Assembly: GCA_003978465.1 (NCBI GenBank)
Contig: QNZS01000035.1
Coordinates: 1 to 64,000 of the forward strand
Reading direction: 5' to 3'
Origin: Sulfurimonas sp.
GTDB taxonomy: Bacteria; Campylobacterota; Campylobacteria; Campylobacterales; Sulfurimonadaceae
Length of the DNA stretch: 64,000 bases
Under the pieces are notes generated by a model. It was given only the letters and a program-made list of their open reading frames with translations. It searched no databases and was not told the origin of the DNA. Made by a program: the position numbers and the translations under genes. Position 1 is the stretch's first letter; every line of letters begins with the position of its first letter. This document shows, in pieces, positions 50,598 through 59,127 of the stretch.

Positions 50598-50948
50598 CTA
50601 GTTTAAAAAATCTGTTATTGCAGAAGCTGGACGACCTATAATCGCCTTATCACCTTTAATAAGCACAGGACGTTGTATAAGTTGAGGATTTTGTATCATT
50701 GCTTCAATAAGAGCCTCTTCATCTGTAACATTTTTTAAATCAAGCTCTTTGTAAACAGCTTCAGTGGTACGCATCCACTCTCTTGGACTTTTAAAGCCTA
50801 ATATTTTGAGCATGTTCTTCATAGTTTCCATGGTGAGTGTCTCATCTAAATATTTAACTACTTCACTTTCACATTTATCTGCTTCTACTATATTTACAGC
50901 CTCACGAGATTTGGTACAGCGAGGATTGTGCCAGATTGTTATTTTCAT
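50598..50948 (-). CDS. ArsC/Spx family thioredoxin-fold protein (arsenate-reductase-like)
   Basis: The 116-residue protein has the glutaredoxin-type active site WHNPRCTKSREAVNI with a single catalytic Cys13 and the later RPVLIKGDKAIIGRP, both typical of ArsC (plasmid R773 type). This suggests glutathione/glutaredoxin-linked arsenate reduction or a YffB-like role. No ars genes are next to it, so arsenic resistance is uncertain. Confidence 0.82.
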   Translation of the reverse strand: MKITIWHNPRCTKSREAVNIVEADKCESEVVKYLDETLTMETMKNMLKILGFKSPREWMRTTEAVYKELDLKNVTDEEALIEAMIQNPQLIQRPVLIKGDKAIIGRPASAITDFLN

Positions 50949-51275: not shown

Positions 51276-52250
51276 TTAGTGCAGGTAATAGTGAGCCTCA
51301 TAAGCGAGTCTCATTACTCCAACAGCATAATTGGATGAGTTGTTATACTTCATAATCTTTTTTGTATAAGCTTTCATCTCTTGTAACTTTGGTTTATTTT
51401 TTGTAAAACAGTTATAAACCTTACCACTTTTACTTGTCTCATACACAAAAGAAGCATCTTTTGTAGCGAAATTATATTCATACCATTGGGCCTCTACCTC
51501 CGGAATATCTGGCATTGTATCCCAGTTAATAAGTTGTGTAAATGCAGCCTTCTTAGTGAGAAAGTTAGCAGCTGAGACTATTGCATCTTCCATTTTATTT
51601 AGGTTTGCCACCTTGTTTTGATAGGAGAGAGCATAAATAAAACTATTAGGCATAAACTGAGGTATTCCAACTGCTCCTGCATATGAACTTGCAAGGTTAC
51701 ATTGCTCAGGCTGTAGCCCTGCTTTATAGCAGTAGTTAATAATAGAAGCCATATTCGTTTTACCCATTTTAAGGAGCCATTTCTCTCTTGGTGAGTTTGG
51801 CTGAATTCGAACAACGATAGTGTTAAAAACTATAAAAGCATCATGACTCGGTTTAATCTTTCCAAGTTTTGTCTCTTTTAAAAGTATAGCAGCGATTATC
51901 TCACGGTTGACACCATACTTTTTCTCTACATAGTCATAGACTTTTTTATAGTTTTGAAGATTTTCTATCATTTTTGGTACATAGCTTACAAGTACATTAT
52001 TGGCTTTTTTCTCTTGTTCTTGATGATGTTTTATTTTGCTTGGTTGTAGATAAGCCCAACTCACTTCATCATACTTTTTTGTTTTAAAGTAAGATGTTAA
52101 GAATTGGTTAGTATACTTATATGAAACACCAGACTTAATAGCTTGTTTACAAACATCTGAGTAATCTGTATTTTTAAAAGCACAATTGCTATACTGAGCT
52201 TGTAGTTGGGTACTGAGGATAAATAGTATGAGTAATATTTTAGTTTGCAT
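51276..52250 (-). CDS. MltB-like lytic murein transglycosylase
   Basis: Lytic transglycosylases cut the glycan strands of peptidoglycan and leave 1,6-anhydro-MurNAc ends. The 324-residue protein has a signal peptide (about 1-18). The catalytic Glu is in IAAILLKETKLGK, and the SLT-family elements are SSYAGAVGIPQFMPNSFIYAL and MEDAIVSAANFLTKKA, as in MltB (SltB). It is the last gene of the salvage operon and overlaps the MurU-like gene by 11 bases. Its products would be substrates for the exported NagZ-amidase fusion upstream. Confidence 0.87.
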   Translation of the reverse strand: MQTKILLILFILSTQLQAQYSNCAFKNTDYSDVCKQAIKSGVSYKYTNQFLTSYFKTKKYDEVSWAYLQPSKIKHHQEQEKKANNVLVSYVPKMIENLQNYKKVYDYVEKKYGVNREIIAAILLKETKLGKIKPSHDAFIVFNTIVVRIQPNSPREKWLLKMGKTNMASIINYCYKAGLQPEQCNLASSYAGAVGIPQFMPNSFIYALSYQNKVANLNKMEDAIVSAANFLTKKAAFTQLINWDTMPDIPEVEAQWYEYNFATKDASFVYETSKSGKVYNCFTKNKPKLQEMKAYTKKIMKYNNSSNYAVGVMRLAYEAHYYLH

Positions 52251-52899
52251 TATTGATTTCTTTTAACCTTTTTTGTGTGCCTATATCGTGCCATATTTTT
52301 GTAAACACTTCACCGCTTATTTCTTCTTTATTGATACTTTCTCTTAAAAGTGGAGCGAGTGATTTCTTTTGAATGCCGATAGTATCAAATAGTGCCGGAG
52401 TATAGTACCCTATACCTGAGAATGTGAACATTTCATCTGCTTCATTTAAAACTAGACTATTCTTGATGGCAAAGTCCCCTTGTATATTATGCTCTGGATT
52501 TGGTACTAAAATTAGATGTGCTTTTTTTCCATGTAAGTCAAAACTTGCATCAAATTCATACTCACAGAAAATATCTCCATTAACAACTAAAAAAGGTTCA
52601 GTACCTAAAAGAGGTAGTGCTTTTTTTATGCCACCAGCAGATTCTAAGGCACCATATTTTTGCTCATCTGAGTAAGAGATTTTAATACCGTATTTTGAAC
52701 CATTACCTAGATACTCAGGTATTTTATATCCTAAGTGAGCAATGTTTATGACTATCTCTTTAAAGCCATTTTTTATTAGTTTTTCTATGTGCCAAAGTAT
52801 AAGTGCTTTACCCTGTACTTCTATAAGTGGTTTTGGAATTTTATCTGTTAATGGACGCATCCTTTCTCCTCGACCTGCTGCTAATATCATCGCTTTCAT
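52240..52899 (-). CDS. murU: N-acetylmuramate-1-phosphate uridylyltransferase, MurU-like
   Basis: MurU makes UDP-MurNAc from MurNAc-1-phosphate and UTP and so bypasses de novo synthesis. The 219-residue protein begins MKAMILAAGRGERMRPLTDK with the nucleotidyltransferase loop, followed by IPKPLIEVQGKALILWHI and EPFLVVNGDIFCEYEFD with a metal-binding Asp. A longer frame opens at 52977, but ATG 52899 fits the family and lies one base after the AmgK-like stop. The pairing with an AmgK-like kinase is as in Pseudomonas putida. Without that context it could be another sugar-1-phosphate nucleotidyltransferase. Confidence 0.85.
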   Translation of the reverse strand: MKAMILAAGRGERMRPLTDKIPKPLIEVQGKALILWHIEKLIKNGFKEIVINIAHLGYKIPEYLGNGSKYGIKISYSDEQKYGALESAGGIKKALPLLGTEPFLVVNGDIFCEYEFDASFDLHGKKAHLILVPNPEHNIQGDFAIKNSLVLNEADEMFTFSGIGYYTPALFDTIGIQKKSLAPLLRESINKEEISGEVFTKIWHDIGTQKRLKEINNAN

Positions 52900-52900
52900 C

Positions 52901-53851
52901 TTAAATTGTACTTTTGTTAAGTTTCTGCAAAAAATGTGCAAACTCTTTTGTCTCTTCATATCTGAGGGCTGTTTCAATTATATACTTTAAGACGAGAGGA
53001 ATATCTTTGAGGTAGCCATCTTTTTTATCCCGAAGGTGTAAGCGCGAGAAAATACCCAGTACTTTTATATGGCGTTGAAGCCCCGTAAAGTCAAACCATT
53101 TTATAAAGACTTCATCACTTACTCTAAGAGCTTGTTTATCTCGAAAGTAAAGAGCTAAGTCTTCTATATCTGCTCTCTTAAACTCTATATAACAATCTTT
53201 TAAAAGTGAAACTAAGTCATAAGTAATAGGACCAGTCATAGCATCTTGATAATCAATGACAGCTATCTCATCTTGAGGTGTGAGCATAATATTTCGAGAG
53301 TGAAAATCTCTATGAACAAAGACATCTTGAGGTTGTTGTAGTACAAGTTCAGATATAGAGTTGAGAGTATCTTTTATAAGTTCTTTTTCTTCTTTGTTTA
53401 AAGAGAGAGAAAGATTTTTCTCTAAGTACCACTCTTGCATTAAGTCCATCTCAAAATGTAAGAATACTTTATCATAAACAGGTAGAGACTGGCTTGCTGC
53501 GTTTTGCATCTTGAGTATCTCATCTATAGCATTTTTATAGTGTGTTTTAAAGTTAGAACTTTTTAAGACATCAAGAAGTTGTATATTTCCAAAATCTTCT
53601 AAAATAAGATATCCATATTTCTCATTTTTTTCTAAGATTTGTGGGGCTTTAACTCCTGCATTTAAAAGTCTTGCAGTTACATTTATAAAAGGTGAAAGAG
53701 ACTCTAACTCCAAAGAACTATCCATGATAATACGAGTTTCTTTCTCTTTTGTTAAACGATAGTATTTACGAAAACTAGCATCTGCACTTGCAATACTCAG
53801 TACATAATCTTTATAAGGAGTTGTCTGTATCCAAGTTTGTATTTTATCCAT
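52901..53851 (-). CDS. amgK: AmgK-like N-acetylmuramate/N-acetylglucosamine 1-kinase
   Basis: AmgK phosphorylates MurNAc at the anomeric position to feed MurU. The 316-residue protein has the aminoglycoside-phosphotransferase fold: SADASFRKYYRLT near residue 23, ILEDFGNIQLLDVL, the catalytic loop FVHRDFHSRNIMLTPQD, and the metal Asp in IAVIDYQDAMTGPITYDLVSLL. That last part is especially AmgK-like. It overlaps anmK by 8 bases and murU follows at once. It is the key for calling this a UDP-MurNAc salvage route rather than degradation by MurQ. Confidence 0.87.
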   Translation of the reverse strand: MDKIQTWIQTTPYKDYVLSIASADASFRKYYRLTKEKETRIIMDSSLELESLSPFINVTARLLNAGVKAPQILEKNEKYGYLILEDFGNIQLLDVLKSSNFKTHYKNAIDEILKMQNAASQSLPVYDKVFLHFEMDLMQEWYLEKNLSLSLNKEEKELIKDTLNSISELVLQQPQDVFVHRDFHSRNIMLTPQDEIAVIDYQDAMTGPITYDLVSLLKDCYIEFKRADIEDLALYFRDKQALRVSDEVFIKWFDFTGLQRHIKVLGIFSRLHLRDKKDGYLKDIPLVLKYIIETALRYEETKEFAHFLQKLNKSTI

Positions 53852-54932
53852 ATATAGCTCCTAGTTGTGAACTTTTTGTAGCTCCTGTGATAGAACATAA
53901 ATCTACTTCTTGTTTATGAGTACGTTTATAAGCAAACCAAGCAAAGGCCATCGCTTCAAGTACATCACTGTTTACTCCTAGTTCATCACTGCATTTAAGT
54001 ACACAAGTATTTAGCTCGCTTAGTCTTTGCATAAGAAACTTGTTTTTTGTACCACCACCGCAAACTATTAGACTTGTAATATCTCTGTCTTTTAAATCAT
54101 TTGAGATACTAAGAGCAGTAAGTTCGAGTAGGGTTCTTTGTATATCTTGATCACTAAGGTGTGTGAAGTTTGTAAGTTTCTCTTCAAGCCAAAGAGCATT
54201 GAAGTACTCTCTTCCTGTACTCTTTGGAGCAGATTTTTGGAAGTACTTATCTTCGAGCATAAGTGTTAAAAGTGCCTTATTTAGTTTACCACTAGAAGCA
54301 AACTCTCCATCCTTATCATAAGGTTTGAGCTGTGTTTGACTAATCCACCAATCAAGTAAAACATTACCACAGCCTGAGTCCCATCCAAGTACTTGCTCTT
54401 CTAATATAGTGATGTTCGCCATACCACCTATGTTTAAAACAGCAACTTTTCCCTCTAATCGAGAAAAAAGAAACTTATGAAATGCAGGAGCAAAAGGAGC
54501 ACCCTGCCCACCATTGGCTATATCCATACGTCTAAAATCGGCTATGGTAGTTATCTGTGTTTTTGATGCTACTATATTTGCATCGCCTAGTTGCATAGAA
54601 AAAGGTGTATGACCATTTGGTGAATGCCAAAGAGTTTGTCCATGTAAACCAATAGCAATTACATCCTCTCTGTTGATATTAAAGGCGAGTAAAAAAGTAT
54701 TGATTGAATCGGCAAAAAGAGTTCCGAGTTTGTGTTCAAGAGTACCTAAAAATAAAAGTGTTTGGGGAGTTGAAATAACCTCTAAGACATCTTTTTTTAA
54801 GTCTAGGGGAAATGAGTACTCATGAAAATGAAGAAGTTCGCATGAAGTATCGTTTATCTGACATAGTACGATATCAACACCATCAAGACTAGTCCCAGAC
54901 ATGACACCTATATAGAGCTGTTTCTTGTGCAT
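53844..54932 (-). CDS. anmK: Anhydro-N-acetylmuramic acid kinase AnmK
   Basis: AnmK opens the 1,6-anhydro ring of anhMurNAc and phosphorylates it to MurNAc-6-phosphate with ATP. The 362-residue protein has LYIGVMSGTSLDGVDIVL at the start, GLHGQTLWHSPNG, TTIADFRRMDIANGGQGAPF and LLDWWISQTQLKPYDKDGE-like segments, all typical. I use ATG 54932 with AGGTGA upstream; a longer frame from 55004 has no support. It is 11 bases behind the symporter gene. A MurNAc-6-P phosphatase (MupP) would be needed to reach AmgK and is not in this window. Confidence 0.93.
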   Translation of the reverse strand: MHKKQLYIGVMSGTSLDGVDIVLCQINDTSCELLHFHEYSFPLDLKKDVLEVISTPQTLLFLGTLEHKLGTLFADSINTFLLAFNINREDVIAIGLHGQTLWHSPNGHTPFSMQLGDANIVASKTQITTIADFRRMDIANGGQGAPFAPAFHKFLFSRLEGKVAVLNIGGMANITILEEQVLGWDSGCGNVLLDWWISQTQLKPYDKDGEFASSGKLNKALLTLMLEDKYFQKSAPKSTGREYFNALWLEEKLTNFTHLSDQDIQRTLLELTALSISNDLKDRDITSLIVCGGGTKNKFLMQRLSELNTCVLKCSDELGVNSDVLEAMAFAWFAYKRTHKQEVDLCSITGATKSSQLGAIYG

Positions 54933-54943
54933 AGTCACCTCTT

Positions 54944-56431
54944 TTATTTTGTATTTACTTGCATTATAGCAAATGATACAGCTGTACCAATAGTTATCTG
55001 CCAAGCAAAACCTATACTAAAACCAAAAGTATAAGGCTGAAGGATAAGTACTGTTAGGAATCCACCAACAAGAGAATAGGGTACAAGCTGTACAGTTCCT
55101 CTTGAAGTAAATATAGCAGAGAAAAAAACTCCAAGTAAACCTGTGTATGCAAATGCCATTACTCCAAGTGCAAAACCGATGAGTGAGAGATCTGAGTATC
55201 TTTGCCAGAAGTAACTGAGCAGTGCCATAGCAAAGAGTAAAAGAGAAAAGAGTAAAACAGCATTACGAGATGCTTTTATGAAGTGGGCTTCACTGGTATT
55301 GGTGTCTTTTTTGAGTTTATATGGTCTGTAGAGATCTTCAATAGCGACTGAACTAAGTGCTCCTAAGACTGAGTTTGTACTTGAAAGTGCTGCTGCAATC
55401 GCTCCAATTGTAACAAACCCTCGTATTCCTTCTGGCATCTCGTTTAGTATATAGTACATAAAAACAGTGATTTTTTCGCCTTTAAAACTTTGTAGGATAT
55501 CTGTACTTTGGTAGTGTACAAAAAGTAAAGCTCCTATGCTTAAAAAGAGTAAAACAATAGGGATAGTAAAAAGGATAGAGAGTATAAGTGAACGAGAAGC
55601 TTCTTCTTTATTCTTACAGGTGAGCACTCTTTGTGTCATATCTTGGTCAAGTCCAAATGCGGCAATGTTAAGAAGTAACCAACCACTCAGTAAGCCTATG
55701 ATACTAAACTTTCCATCTAAACTAGTATCTATAATGGTGAGTTTATTTTCTTGATTTAAAATCTCGATAATTGCGACATCACCTAGTGAAGTATATAGAT
55801 AAAAGAGGACAAGAAAACCTGCACTAACATAGGTGAGAGCTTGAATAACATCACTCAAAATAATAGACTTCACTCCTCCAAAATAGGTGTAAGCCAAAGC
55901 ACCAAGGAGAAGTATAAAGATAGAAATTATCATATGGAGAAGTAAAATATCTAAAAATAGTATCATACTAATAGCAAGAGCTGCAATATAGAGTCTAGCT
56001 CCACTTGCCATAATCCGTCCTATTAAAAACATAATTCCAGCCTGTTTTTTAGCACTTTCACCATAACGGGACTCTAAAAGTTCATAAACAGTGATGGCAT
56101 TAATGGCATAAAACTTTGGTACAAAAAACTTAGCAACAAATATAACGGCTAAAAGAGATGAGAAGTAAAAACCTATAAGTGTAAAGTTGTGAGTATAAGA
56201 GAACTCAGGAACCCCTAAGAATGTTGCAGCAGACTGTGTTGTAGCAAGTATACTGATGGCAACTGCGAGTAGAGGCATAGAGTTTGAAGCTGTAAAGTAT
56301 TCCCGACTTGTATTTATTTTTTGACGAGAAAACCAGTAAGAGCTAAAGGCTAAAACACCAAAGTAGGCTAAAAATATTAACCAGTCAAGAGATGTGAAGC
56401 TACTATTTATCAAGAGCTGCTCTAATTTCAT
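54944..56431 (-). CDS. Sodium:solute symporter family transporter, candidate anhydro-MurNAc importer
   Basis: The roughly 495-residue protein has about 13 membrane helices and SSS-family marks: SLDWLIFLAYFGVLAFSSYW as first helix, SREYFTASNSMPLLAVAISI, LATTQSAATFLGVPEF and GFVTIGAIAAALSSTNSVLGALSSVAIEDLY-like segments around the Na+ site. Relatives carry sialic acid, sugars, proline or myo-inositol. I use ATG 56431; a start at 56455 is also possible, and both overlap the NagZ-amidase gene. Its place between an exported NagZ-amidase and AnmK makes anhMurNAc, or a related cell wall sugar, the best guess for its cargo. This is inference, as no AmpG is seen. Confidence 0.85.
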   Translation of the reverse strand: MKLEQLLINSSFTSLDWLIFLAYFGVLAFSSYWFSRQKINTSREYFTASNSMPLLAVAISILATTQSAATFLGVPEFSYTHNFTLIGFYFSSLLAVIFVAKFFVPKFYAINAITVYELLESRYGESAKKQAGIMFLIGRIMASGARLYIAALAISMILFLDILLLHMIISIFILLLGALAYTYFGGVKSIILSDVIQALTYVSAGFLVLFYLYTSLGDVAIIEILNQENKLTIIDTSLDGKFSIIGLLSGWLLLNIAAFGLDQDMTQRVLTCKNKEEASRSLILSILFTIPIVLLFLSIGALLFVHYQSTDILQSFKGEKITVFMYYILNEMPEGIRGFVTIGAIAAALSSTNSVLGALSSVAIEDLYRPYKLKKDTNTSEAHFIKASRNAVLLFSLLLFAMALLSYFWQRYSDLSLIGFALGVMAFAYTGLLGVFFSAIFTSRGTVQLVPYSLVGGFLTVLILQPYTFGFSIGFAWQITIGTAVSFAIMQVNTK

Positions 56432-58061
56432 GCATAAAAACTTTTCCTGGGTCATTTTTCTCAGTTCTATATGACTTGTCTTTTTCTAACCAAAGTTCTG
56501 AATCTTCATAGTTTCTATATTCATAATGCCCAAGAACATTTGTGATACTCGAGTACTTATCTTTGAGATAATTTATAAGTGCGATGTTAGAAGTGAGTTG
56601 TGAGGCTGTTAAATCTTCACTTGTGTTATTTCTGCCACCTACATTTTCTATACCGATACTTGAATAATTTAATCCAATTACATGTCGAGCCATAGTATTA
56701 TCAGGCATAAGTTGATATATAGTACCTCTACGGTCTATGAGATAATGTGCAGATACATTAAGAGTTGAGGCTTTTACAATATCCTTCCTATCACTAAACA
56801 GGAGTTCAGGGTTGAGCCTCTCGTAAGACTTGTTAAAGTCCATCATTGCAGTCCAGTGTACAACTATGTTTTTTGGAATGATATTTATGTTTTTTACATA
56901 AAATCCATAATGTGTTTTAATGTACTCTTTTGTGAGTTGTCTGCGTTTGTCTGTAAACACAATAGGCTTTTGGATGATAGAGTTTTTCGTATGCATATTC
57001 TTTATACGTTTATTAGCTTCTTTGATTTTTTCTAGAGAAATTGAACCATTTTTCACCTGCTTATATATAGTGTTTACTATATCTGAAACACTATTTCTTG
57101 CTAGTTGATTTCCAAAAAGTAAGATATCTACTCCCGCATTTATAGCTAGTTTTGTACTATCTTTAAGTGAATAATGCTCGGAAATTGCCTTCATCTGCAT
57201 ATCATCGCTGATGATGAGTCCTTTAAAATTGAGCTTTTCCCGTAGTAACTCAGTGTTTGTTTTATAGGAGAGTGTTGCTGGATATTTGTTATCAATAAAA
57301 GAGTTAAATACATGTGCAGTCATTATCGCATCGGCTCTGTTTTGTTTAATAAGTGTTTTATAGGGTTTTAGCTCTTTGTTACTCCATGTTTTACTCACAT
57401 CAACAAAACCCCTATGCGAATCCCCTATAGAAGAACCATGCCCTGGAAAGTGTTTTAAAACAGAGATGATTTTCTTCTTTTTTTGAGCATCTATCACTAT
57501 AGAAGCATACTTGACTACATCTTTACTCTCTCTTGCATACGAGCGTTCAAGCCCAACTATTACCTTATTCTTTGGATTAATACTCAGGTCAACAACAGGT
57601 GCAAAATTTAGATTAATGCCTAAGTCTTGGAGCATTTTTGACTGAGAATTATAAATTTTTTTTGCATCAGAAAGATTCATTAAAGAGATTCTTTTGGCAG
57701 AGGGAATGCTTATAAATCCATATTCAGATTTAAGTCGAGCTACTCGTCCTCCTTCTTGGTCTATACCGATAAAAAGAGGTTTAGAAGAGTAGCTATTTAA
57801 GTCATTTATGAGATGTTTTAGTTGGTAAGGATTAAGTATGTTTTTAACACGTTTTTTATCGTTATAGAACTTGTCAAAAAGAATGACACCACCTAAGTCA
57901 TAACTTTGAATATCCTTTACAATCTGAGAGTTATAAAAAACAGCTTGTTCGTCAAAACCCACTATTAGCATCCTTCCTATCATCTTTTTAAGCTCTACAT
58001 CTTCATTTGGTGCTGCATTAAGTAGTAAAAATGTTTGCAATAATAGTAAAAATATTTTCAT
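56403..58061 (-). CDS. Exported NagZ-type GH3 beta-N-acetylglucosaminidase fused to Amidase_2
   Basis: The 552-residue protein combines two cell-wall recycling enzymes. A signal peptide (1-16) is followed by GH3/NagZ (about 22-365) with IDQEGGRVARL, the catalytic His loop KHFPGHGSSIGDSHRG at 203-218, and the nucleophile Asp286 in IISDDMQMKAI. The C-terminal Amidase_2 domain (about 395-550) has zinc ligands likely at His402 (VVHWTA), His512 (LGHYEY) and Asp537 (KNDPGKVF), as in AmpD. It should split GlcNAc from anhMurNAc and peptide from sugar. In E. coli both activities are separate cytoplasmic proteins; here both seem to be fused and periplasmic. Confidence 0.88.
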   Translation of the reverse strand: MKIFLLLLQTFLLLNAAPNEDVELKKMIGRMLIVGFDEQAVFYNSQIVKDIQSYDLGGVILFDKFYNDKKRVKNILNPYQLKHLINDLNSYSSKPLFIGIDQEGGRVARLKSEYGFISIPSAKRISLMNLSDAKKIYNSQSKMLQDLGINLNFAPVVDLSINPKNKVIVGLERSYARESKDVVKYASIVIDAQKKKKIISVLKHFPGHGSSIGDSHRGFVDVSKTWSNKELKPYKTLIKQNRADAIMTAHVFNSFIDNKYPATLSYKTNTELLREKLNFKGLIISDDMQMKAISEHYSLKDSTKLAINAGVDILLFGNQLARNSVSDIVNTIYKQVKNGSISLEKIKEANKRIKNMHTKNSIIQKPIVFTDKRRQLTKEYIKTHYGFYVKNINIIPKNIVVHWTAMMDFNKSYERLNPELLFSDRKDIVKASTLNVSAHYLIDRRGTIYQLMPDNTMARHVIGLNYSSIGIENVGGRNNTSEDLTASQLTSNIALINYLKDKYSSITNVLGHYEYRNYEDSELWLEKDKSYRTEKNDPGKVFMHEIRAALDK

Positions 58062-58064
58062 GGT

Positions 58065-58613
58065 TTATCCCTCTTTCTTATGTACTAAGAGATTTATATC
58101 ATTAATTACTTTAAATATAAGTGATTTAGTGAGCTCTTTTGTAACATTTTGTGGCTCAAAATGGTCACTCACTACTTTAAGAATGTATACATACTTAATA
58201 GCAGGAGAATGGGTAACAGCATCTAAGAATCCGTAAGACTCCATATCTACTACATCATATTTTACTTGGGTAATCGCTTCATGGACACAAACTATACTCT
58301 TTTTACCTTCTTTAAAAGAATGGGATACTCCATCATATATAACTTCACCTATTTCTAAAAGGGAGCCTATAGAATATTGCTTTTTAGCACCACATATCCC
58401 TATGTTTATATACATGTCTTCATCGGTTATGTCATACAGATTTATTAAGGCTTGTGTAGCTTCTCTTGCATTGATCACCCCAATTCCAGAGAGTATTATT
58501 TTTTTAGTTTTATCAGAATAAAGAGTGTATTTACCTAGTTTTGTTTTTGTGAGTTTATACTTATCTACAAAGGCTTGTGCCTCACTCTTTAATGCAATAA
58601 CTATATAAATCAA
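58065..58613 (-). CDS. Nucleoside phosphorylase/nucleosidase superfamily protein
   Basis: The 182-residue protein is a short member of the PNP/MTAN superfamily: ILSGIGVINAREATQALINLY as the phosphate/ribose loop, NIGICGAKKQYSIGSLLEIGE, and the purine-ribose motif YDVVDMESYGFLDAV. Possible substrates are methylthioadenosine, adenosylhomocysteine or futalosine; it is shorter than usual MTAN (about 230). The start is TTG 58613 with AAGGA at 7 bases, and a TATAAT box lies at 58642-58647. It is the first gene of the salvage operon, 3 bases from the NagZ-amidase gene. Its link to cell wall recycling is not clear. Confidence 0.78.
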   Translation of the reverse strand: MIYIVIALKSEAQAFVDKYKLTKTKLGKYTLYSDKTKKIILSGIGVINAREATQALINLYDITDEDMYINIGICGAKKQYSIGSLLEIGEVIYDGVSHSFKEGKKSIVCVHEAITQVKYDVVDMESYGFLDAVTHSPAIKYVYILKVVSDHFEPQNVTKELTKSLIFKVINDINLLVHKKEG

Positions 58614-59022: not shown

Positions 59023-59127
59023 TCTCTTCTTTAGACCTGTGCAATGGTTACTAAAGGTAATGTGTCAGGGTAGGAATACAGCAGCACGCTTTTAGTGGTT
59101 ATGTGCCGCAGGTATCTGGAGAAGAGT
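59023..59127 (+). ncRNA. ffs: Signal recognition particle RNA (4.5S type)
   Basis: The apical part contains GTCAGGGTAGGAATACAGCAGCA, which fits the conserved bacterial SRP pattern GGTCAGG-GGAA-AGCAGC bound by Ffh. The flanks pair as one long hairpin: CTCTTCT (59024-59030) with AGAAGAG (59120-59126), ACCTG with CAGGT, and ACTAAA with TTTAGT. The length of about 105 bases suits the short bacterial form. It directs ribosomes making membrane proteins to the translocon. Confidence 0.85.

Follow-up and report, generated by a model that had tools for sequence, protein, structure and literature searches.

A seven-gene Sulfurimonas operon and a proposed AmpG-free, periplasm-first route for peptidoglycan sugar salvage

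We describe here a seven-gene operon in a 64,000-nucleotide stretch of DNA (the window) from a Sulfurimonas metagenome-assembled genome of 1.43 Mb that is 82% complete. Its seven open reading frames (ORFs) all lie on the minus strand between 51276 and 58613, with a short gap or an overlap at every junction, and in gene order they are:

58065..58613, minus strand: NUC, a 182-amino acid (aa) compact nucleosidase with a predicted MTAN fold; TTG start, PNP_UDP_1 below cut-off
56403..58061, minus strand: NagZ-Amidase_2 fusion of 552 aa with a predicted N-terminal signal peptide; Pfam GH3 N-terminal domain at 28-355 and Amidase_2 at 396-539
54944..56455, minus strand: sodium:solute (SSS) symporter; Pfam SSF, likely start TTG 56413, first ATG 56455
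53844..54932, minus strand: AnmK, anhydro-N-acetylmuramic acid kinase; PF03702 429 bits, NF007139 over cut-off
52901..53851, minus strand: AmgK-like anomeric kinase for N-acetylmuramic acid (MurNAc) or N-acetylglucosamine (GlcNAc); best family NF045759, below cut-off
52240..52899, minus strand: MurU, MurNAc-1-phosphate uridylyltransferase; NF045761 over cut-off
51276..52250, minus strand: MltB-like, putatively exported lytic transglycosylase; PF13406 SLT_2, MltB models below cut-off

The start codons were inspected when the junctions were measured. Gaps of 3 bp, 11 bp and approximately 1 bp separate NUC from NagZ, the symporter gene from anmK, and the AmgK-like gene from murU, and there are overlaps of 8 bp between anmK and the AmgK-like gene and of 11 bp between murU and the MltB-like gene. 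The fusion and symporter genes overlap by 53 bp if the first ATG (56455) is used, and by approximately 11 bp from TTG 56413, which matches the starts of the relatives. An earlier note made from the letters of this DNA had read it as seven co-directional, tightly packed genes of these kinds, and this is confirmed by the ORF map, by NCBIfam and by Pfam (SLT_2, NTP_transferase, APH, AnmK, SSF, GH3 with Amidase_2, and PNP_UDP_1 under its cut-off). A promoter scan gave fewer sites than shuffled sequence, and a terminator scan about as many.

Genomes were searched with the NagZ-amidase fusion, and the operon order recurs in about 20 Sulfurimonas loci, which are the first-ranked returns of that search. 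Because these loci share the order at protein identities of 44-93%, the seven-gene arrangement is not due to chance, and the conservation in relatives on which the earlier note had staked its proposal is found. Among 60 Sulfurimonas genomes, 42 carry a GH3 protein and 44 an Amidase_2 protein (23 fused, 21 separate), and MurU is also present in 39 of the 42 with NagZ. The other three are G169 and G181, whose clusters lie on short contigs (that of G181 with a MurU fragment at the contig end), and G184, a genuine reduced form with only nucleosidase, NagZ and MltB (L248, 5608-8149). Its cluster is without the symporter, AnmK, AmgK and MurU, which suggests that nucleosidase, NagZ and MltB form a unit that can exist apart from the salvage cassette. 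In some relatives unrelated inserts interrupt the cluster, at either the symporter-AnmK junction or the AmgK-MurU junction. At the former place, one locus (L014, 4320-4697) has a gene for a small Cys-rich, possibly iron-sulfur, protein, and gaps of 230-370 bp in L010, L016, L143, L149 and L150 leave room for such a gene.

Across 150 Campylobacterota genomes AnmK is found in seven, which are all Sulfurimonas apart from G139, a member of another family. In G139 an exported amidase gene lies directly before the symporter gene, AnmK-AmgK-MurU follow a few genes on, and NagZ is elsewhere. A GH3 NagZ-type protein is present in 50 of the same 150 genomes as compared with the seven for AnmK, so NagZ is present in many Campylobacterota genera that do not have the AnmK route of salvage.

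Family-model searches of genomes underlie all of the statements on absence made here. The AmpG model (TIGR00901) matches nothing in eight Sulfurimonas genomes, and in the 150 Campylobacterota genomes no protein exceeds its cut-off. No protein in the genomes searched is over the cut-off for MurQ (TIGR00274); the weak matches are distant SIS-domain proteins of approximately 190 aa or 600 aa, by size GmhA and GlmS, and were rejected as MurQ. None of the 60 Sulfurimonas genomes has more than a single GH3 or a single Amidase_2 protein, the apparent doubles being GH3 genes split over contig ends, and a second, cytosolic NagZ or AmpD was rejected because family searches of these genomes found none. 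The cytosolic set of NagZ, AmpD and AmpG that the earlier note had named as contrary evidence is thus not found by family searches in Sulfurimonas.

The fusion begins MKIFLLLLQTFLLLNAAP..., as is typical of a signal peptide, and the predicted signal peptide is MKIFLLLLQTFLLLNA, with cleavage before A. The N-termini of its relatives are likewise signal-like, as are those of nearly all NagZ proteins and of all the standalone amidases read. The predicted signal peptides of the fusion and of the standalone amidases match the exported NagZ and amidase of Bacillus subtilis, and the nearest solved GH3 structure in the PDB to the NagZ domain is B. subtilis YbbD/NagZ; apart from the NagZ of one clade considered below, they do not fit cytoplasmic NagZ and AmpD of the Pseudomonas type. 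In 20 fusion sequences the NagZ residues D214, H216 and D286 are invariant, as are H402, H512, D537, E472 and K535 of the amidase. We take the former to be the active-site residues (a D214/H216 dyad plus D286), as in NagZ, and the latter to be the zinc and catalytic residues, as in AmpD. The MltB-like protein has a catalytic-type glutamate, Glu126, that is invariant in 24 sequences.

The symporter accompanies the operon closely, being present in 17 of 17 operon-bearing genomes and in none of the 11 genomes checked that are without it. Among solved structures SiaT, a carrier of an acidic N-acetyl sugar, is the closest match to the symporter both by sequence (5nv9) and by fold (Z score of 40 to 5nva). 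In SiaT, Ser60 and Thr63 hold the carboxylate of the substrate, Arg135 forms a salt bridge with it, and Ser342 and Ser343 lie at the Na2 site (PMC5931594). The first two align with S75 and T78 of the symporter, both unchanged across 20 sequences; the counterparts of the Na2 serines are S358 and S359, the former kept in 19 of the 20 and the latter in all. Arg147 and Arg154 are also invariant in the 20, three residues before and four residues after Ala150, a position to which we return below. The nearest relatives outside the phylum, in genomes reached through other loci, are mostly from Chlorobiota, at 27-33% identity, and three of the seven best adjoin genes for NamZ. NamZ is an exo-muramidase that frees MurNAc, and this neighbourhood in independent relatives supports a muramyl-sugar substrate without proving it. 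The Arg147/Arg154 pair occurs in the NamZ-adjacent relatives and in a small number of other close ones; most of the SSS paralogues examined lack it.

For the cytoplasmic steps, AnmK matches PF03702 at 429 bits and NF007139 at 452 against a cut-off of 367, and it is the only member of its family in its own genome. MurU matches NF045761 at 292 bits against a curated cut-off of 250, and 36 of the 60 Sulfurimonas genomes have a protein over this cut-off. The gene next to murU encodes the AmgK-like protein, which is related to structure 3csv and in which H180, R181, D182, H184, R186 and N187 of the HRDFHSRN loop are invariant. The first gene product is a weak sequence match (PNP_UDP_1 below its cut-off), although its AlphaFold2 model has a pLDDT of 93 and its top matches in both Foldseek and VIA-align are all MTAN (Z approximately 20). 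The catalytic residues E11, E125 and D150, which correspond to the MTAN triad Glu12/Glu174/Asp197, are invariant. On this modelling it is a compact MTAN-fold nucleosidase, close in size to Chlamydia CT263, and even the reduced cluster of G184 retains its gene together with those for NagZ and MltB.

In standard Gram-negative cell wall recycling import precedes hydrolysis, and Escherichia coli imports whole fragments. We propose that the operon encodes an AmpG-free pathway that works in the periplasm first, and we put the probability of this at about 0.7. Lytic transglycosylases, including the MltB-like enzyme of the operon, would release GlcNAc-anhydroMurNAc-peptides, and the exported fusion would act on these in the periplasm to remove both the stem peptide and GlcNAc. 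The symporter would import the free anhydroMurNAc with Na+, and AnmK would open and phosphorylate it to MurNAc-6-phosphate. A phosphatase would then yield MurNAc, which AmgK and MurU would convert through MurNAc-1-phosphate to UDP-MurNAc. The sequence itself shows which genes and domains are present, the catalytic residues, the signal peptides, the conservation and the lack of AmpG and MurQ, while the substrate transported, the direction of flow, the phosphatase step and the benefit to the cell are inferred. The Sulfurimonas SSS clade would then be a dedicated Na+-driven importer of anhydroMurNAc (or GlcNAc-anhydroMurNAc), with both hydrolyses periplasmic and the products rebuilt to UDP-MurNAc, giving Gram-negative bacteria a further import route besides AmpG and YejBEF-YepA; we consider this somewhat probable.

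Several observations weigh against the proposed pathway. Rebuilding of UDP-MurNAc is supported by AnmK and MurU, and less so by AmgK, whose best NCBIfam match, NF045759, is full-length and scores 248 bits where the cut-off is 550. AmpG and MurQ, two of the three proteins that the note had suggested seeking in the lineage, were not found, but neither was the third, MupP (NF009696), which is over its cut-off in none of the 60 Sulfurimonas genomes and would supply the phosphatase needed between AnmK and AmgK. The best HAD protein in the genome of the window reaches 84 bits, the MupP cut-off being 359, and seems to resemble phosphoglycolate phosphatase models more closely. A divergent MupP homologue has been assigned in Caulobacter at 32.6% identity (PMC13046382), and our Caulobacter control also falls under the cut-off; because the model is this strict, we regard the step as unassigned rather than absent. 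Three HAD_2 groups of the genome that holds the window were considered for it, none of which could be singled out as all are also present in operon-lacking genomes. Nor do the inserts in relatives' clusters include a phosphatase; they encode, among similar things, an MMPL-like transporter, GGDEF proteins and a toxin-antitoxin-like pair. The nucleosidase encoded first has no function in the proposed route, none of whose reactions calls for it. In the symporter, SiaT Arg135 aligns with Ala150, so the salt bridge to the carboxylate has no counterpart at this position; Gln82 is replaced by Phe and the Na3 residue Ser345 by Asn, and the shared R-x6-R motif is shifted.

In one clade, of G151, G163 and G198, NagZ is without a signal peptide and the rest of the operon is kept (L140, 9412-10440, and its relatives L141 and L244), an absence verified in the DNA for G151. 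These genomes form one branch with support of 100/100, and the absence is therefore a single event. The symporter of this clade may carry GlcNAc-anhydroMurNAc, or its NagZ may be exported in another way. Hydrolysis in the periplasm, which the earlier note had proposed, agrees with the predicted signal peptides and with the single NagZ and Amidase_2 per genome; for NagZ such a peptide is predicted in the window and nearly all relatives, and not in this clade. The clade gives most substance to the alternative that the symporter imports peptide-free GlcNAc-anhydroMurNAc, or MurNAc, and that the location of NagZ is flexible, since its amidase has a signal peptide and the symporter, AnmK, AmgK and MurU persist; the separated amidase and NagZ genes of G139 point the same way. 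However, in nearly all other genomes, that of the window included, NagZ is preceded by a signal peptide, often as part of a fusion with an exported amidase, and once exported it would cleave the disaccharide before this could be taken up, so that we consider this alternative rather unlikely.

That the imported sugar is freed anhydroMurNAc also presupposes what the symporter carries. The substrates of SSS proteins are highly varied and cannot be read from sequence, and identity to SiaT is only approximately 24%, so an unrelated solute and an incidental location among salvage genes could be envisaged. This is the least credible of the readings considered here, in view of the perfect co-occurrence of symporter and operon in 28 genomes, the overlap or tight spacing of its gene with both neighbours, and the NamZ neighbours of independent relatives. 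The sugar import claimed by the earlier note agrees with this association, and anhydroMurNAc as the substrate is an inference. It is also very unlikely that the operon serves to feed catabolically on foreign peptidoglycan instead of recycling the cell's own wall. Exported hydrolases could conceivably attack external fragments able to pass the outer membrane, but no MurQ to feed MurNAc-6-phosphate into catabolism was found over the cut-off in the genomes searched, AmgK and MurU are anabolic, and the operon includes a lytic transglycosylase, the type of enzyme that produces the anhydro sugar used by AnmK.

Each element of the proposed periplasm-first pathway has a precedent. The murQRP-amiE-nagZ-ybbC system of B. 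subtilis employs an exported NagZ, then an exported MurNAc-L-Ala amidase, and then import of the free amino sugar (PMC5061867). The Sulfurimonas operon resembles it in placing NagZ and amidase outside the cytoplasm ahead of sugar import, and differs in that the two hydrolases are fused. In B. subtilis MurNAc enters through MurP, a protein of the phosphotransferase system (PTS), and is broken down by MurQ, whereas in Sulfurimonas an SSS symporter would be followed by AnmK acting on the anhydro sugar and by rebuilding through AmgK and MurU; the operon transporter is of the SSF family and not a PTS MurP, although PTS proteins were not searched for genome-wide. Pseudomonas and Caulobacter have the AnmK, AmgK and MurU route to UDP-MurNAc that is proposed here, without MurQ in Pseudomonas, but import whole anhydro-muropeptides by AmpG, have cytoplasmic NagZ and AmpD, and have an identified MupP (PMC5371407, PMC13046382); in Sulfurimonas no AmpG was found, the hydrolases are predicted to be exported, and no phosphatase is assigned.

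Tannerella forsythia takes up free MurNAc through MurT, by description a member of the sodium symporter superfamily, and passes it to anabolic AmgK/MurU; it is auxotrophic for MurNAc, has AmpG as well as both MurK/MurQ and AmgK/MurU branches, and is without AnmK (PMC5790795, PMC7670621). Our likening of the Sulfurimonas symporter to MurT is by description only. YejBEF-YepA, a muropeptide ABC importer of Rhizobiales, is another AmpG-free Gram-negative solution, used in Agrobacterium, but it imports intact muropeptides for cytoplasmic NagZ and AmpD, and YepA is said to occur in Alphaproteobacteria only (PMC9790009). In the literature searched we found no description of one operon that combines an exported fusion of NagZ and amidase with a symporter and with AnmK, AmgK and MurU, none of this set in Campylobacterota, in keeping with the earlier note, and no paper treating NagZ, MurNAc, an SSS symporter and AnmK together.

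If the proposal is correct, the operon would account for recycling in the absence of AmpG by hydrolysing first and relying on a sodium symporter, and it would provide an importer for an acidic anhydro sugar that otherwise has no clear carrier. The pathway also predicts a supply of UDP-MurNAc independent of MurA, and thus lower sensitivity to fosfomycin, in a sulfur-oxidising marine genus. The missing phosphatase and the leading nucleosidase are two puzzles that the operon poses.

Two further features lie near the operon. Part of the non-coding stretch between it and rplT is accounted for by a bacterial small signal recognition particle RNA gene at 59028-59125 on the plus strand (Rfam RF00169, 61.9 bits). 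Approximately 330 bp downstream of the operon and on the same strand, an ArsC arsenate reductase gene at 50598-50948 (minus; TIGR00014 over cut-off) is probably separate from it.

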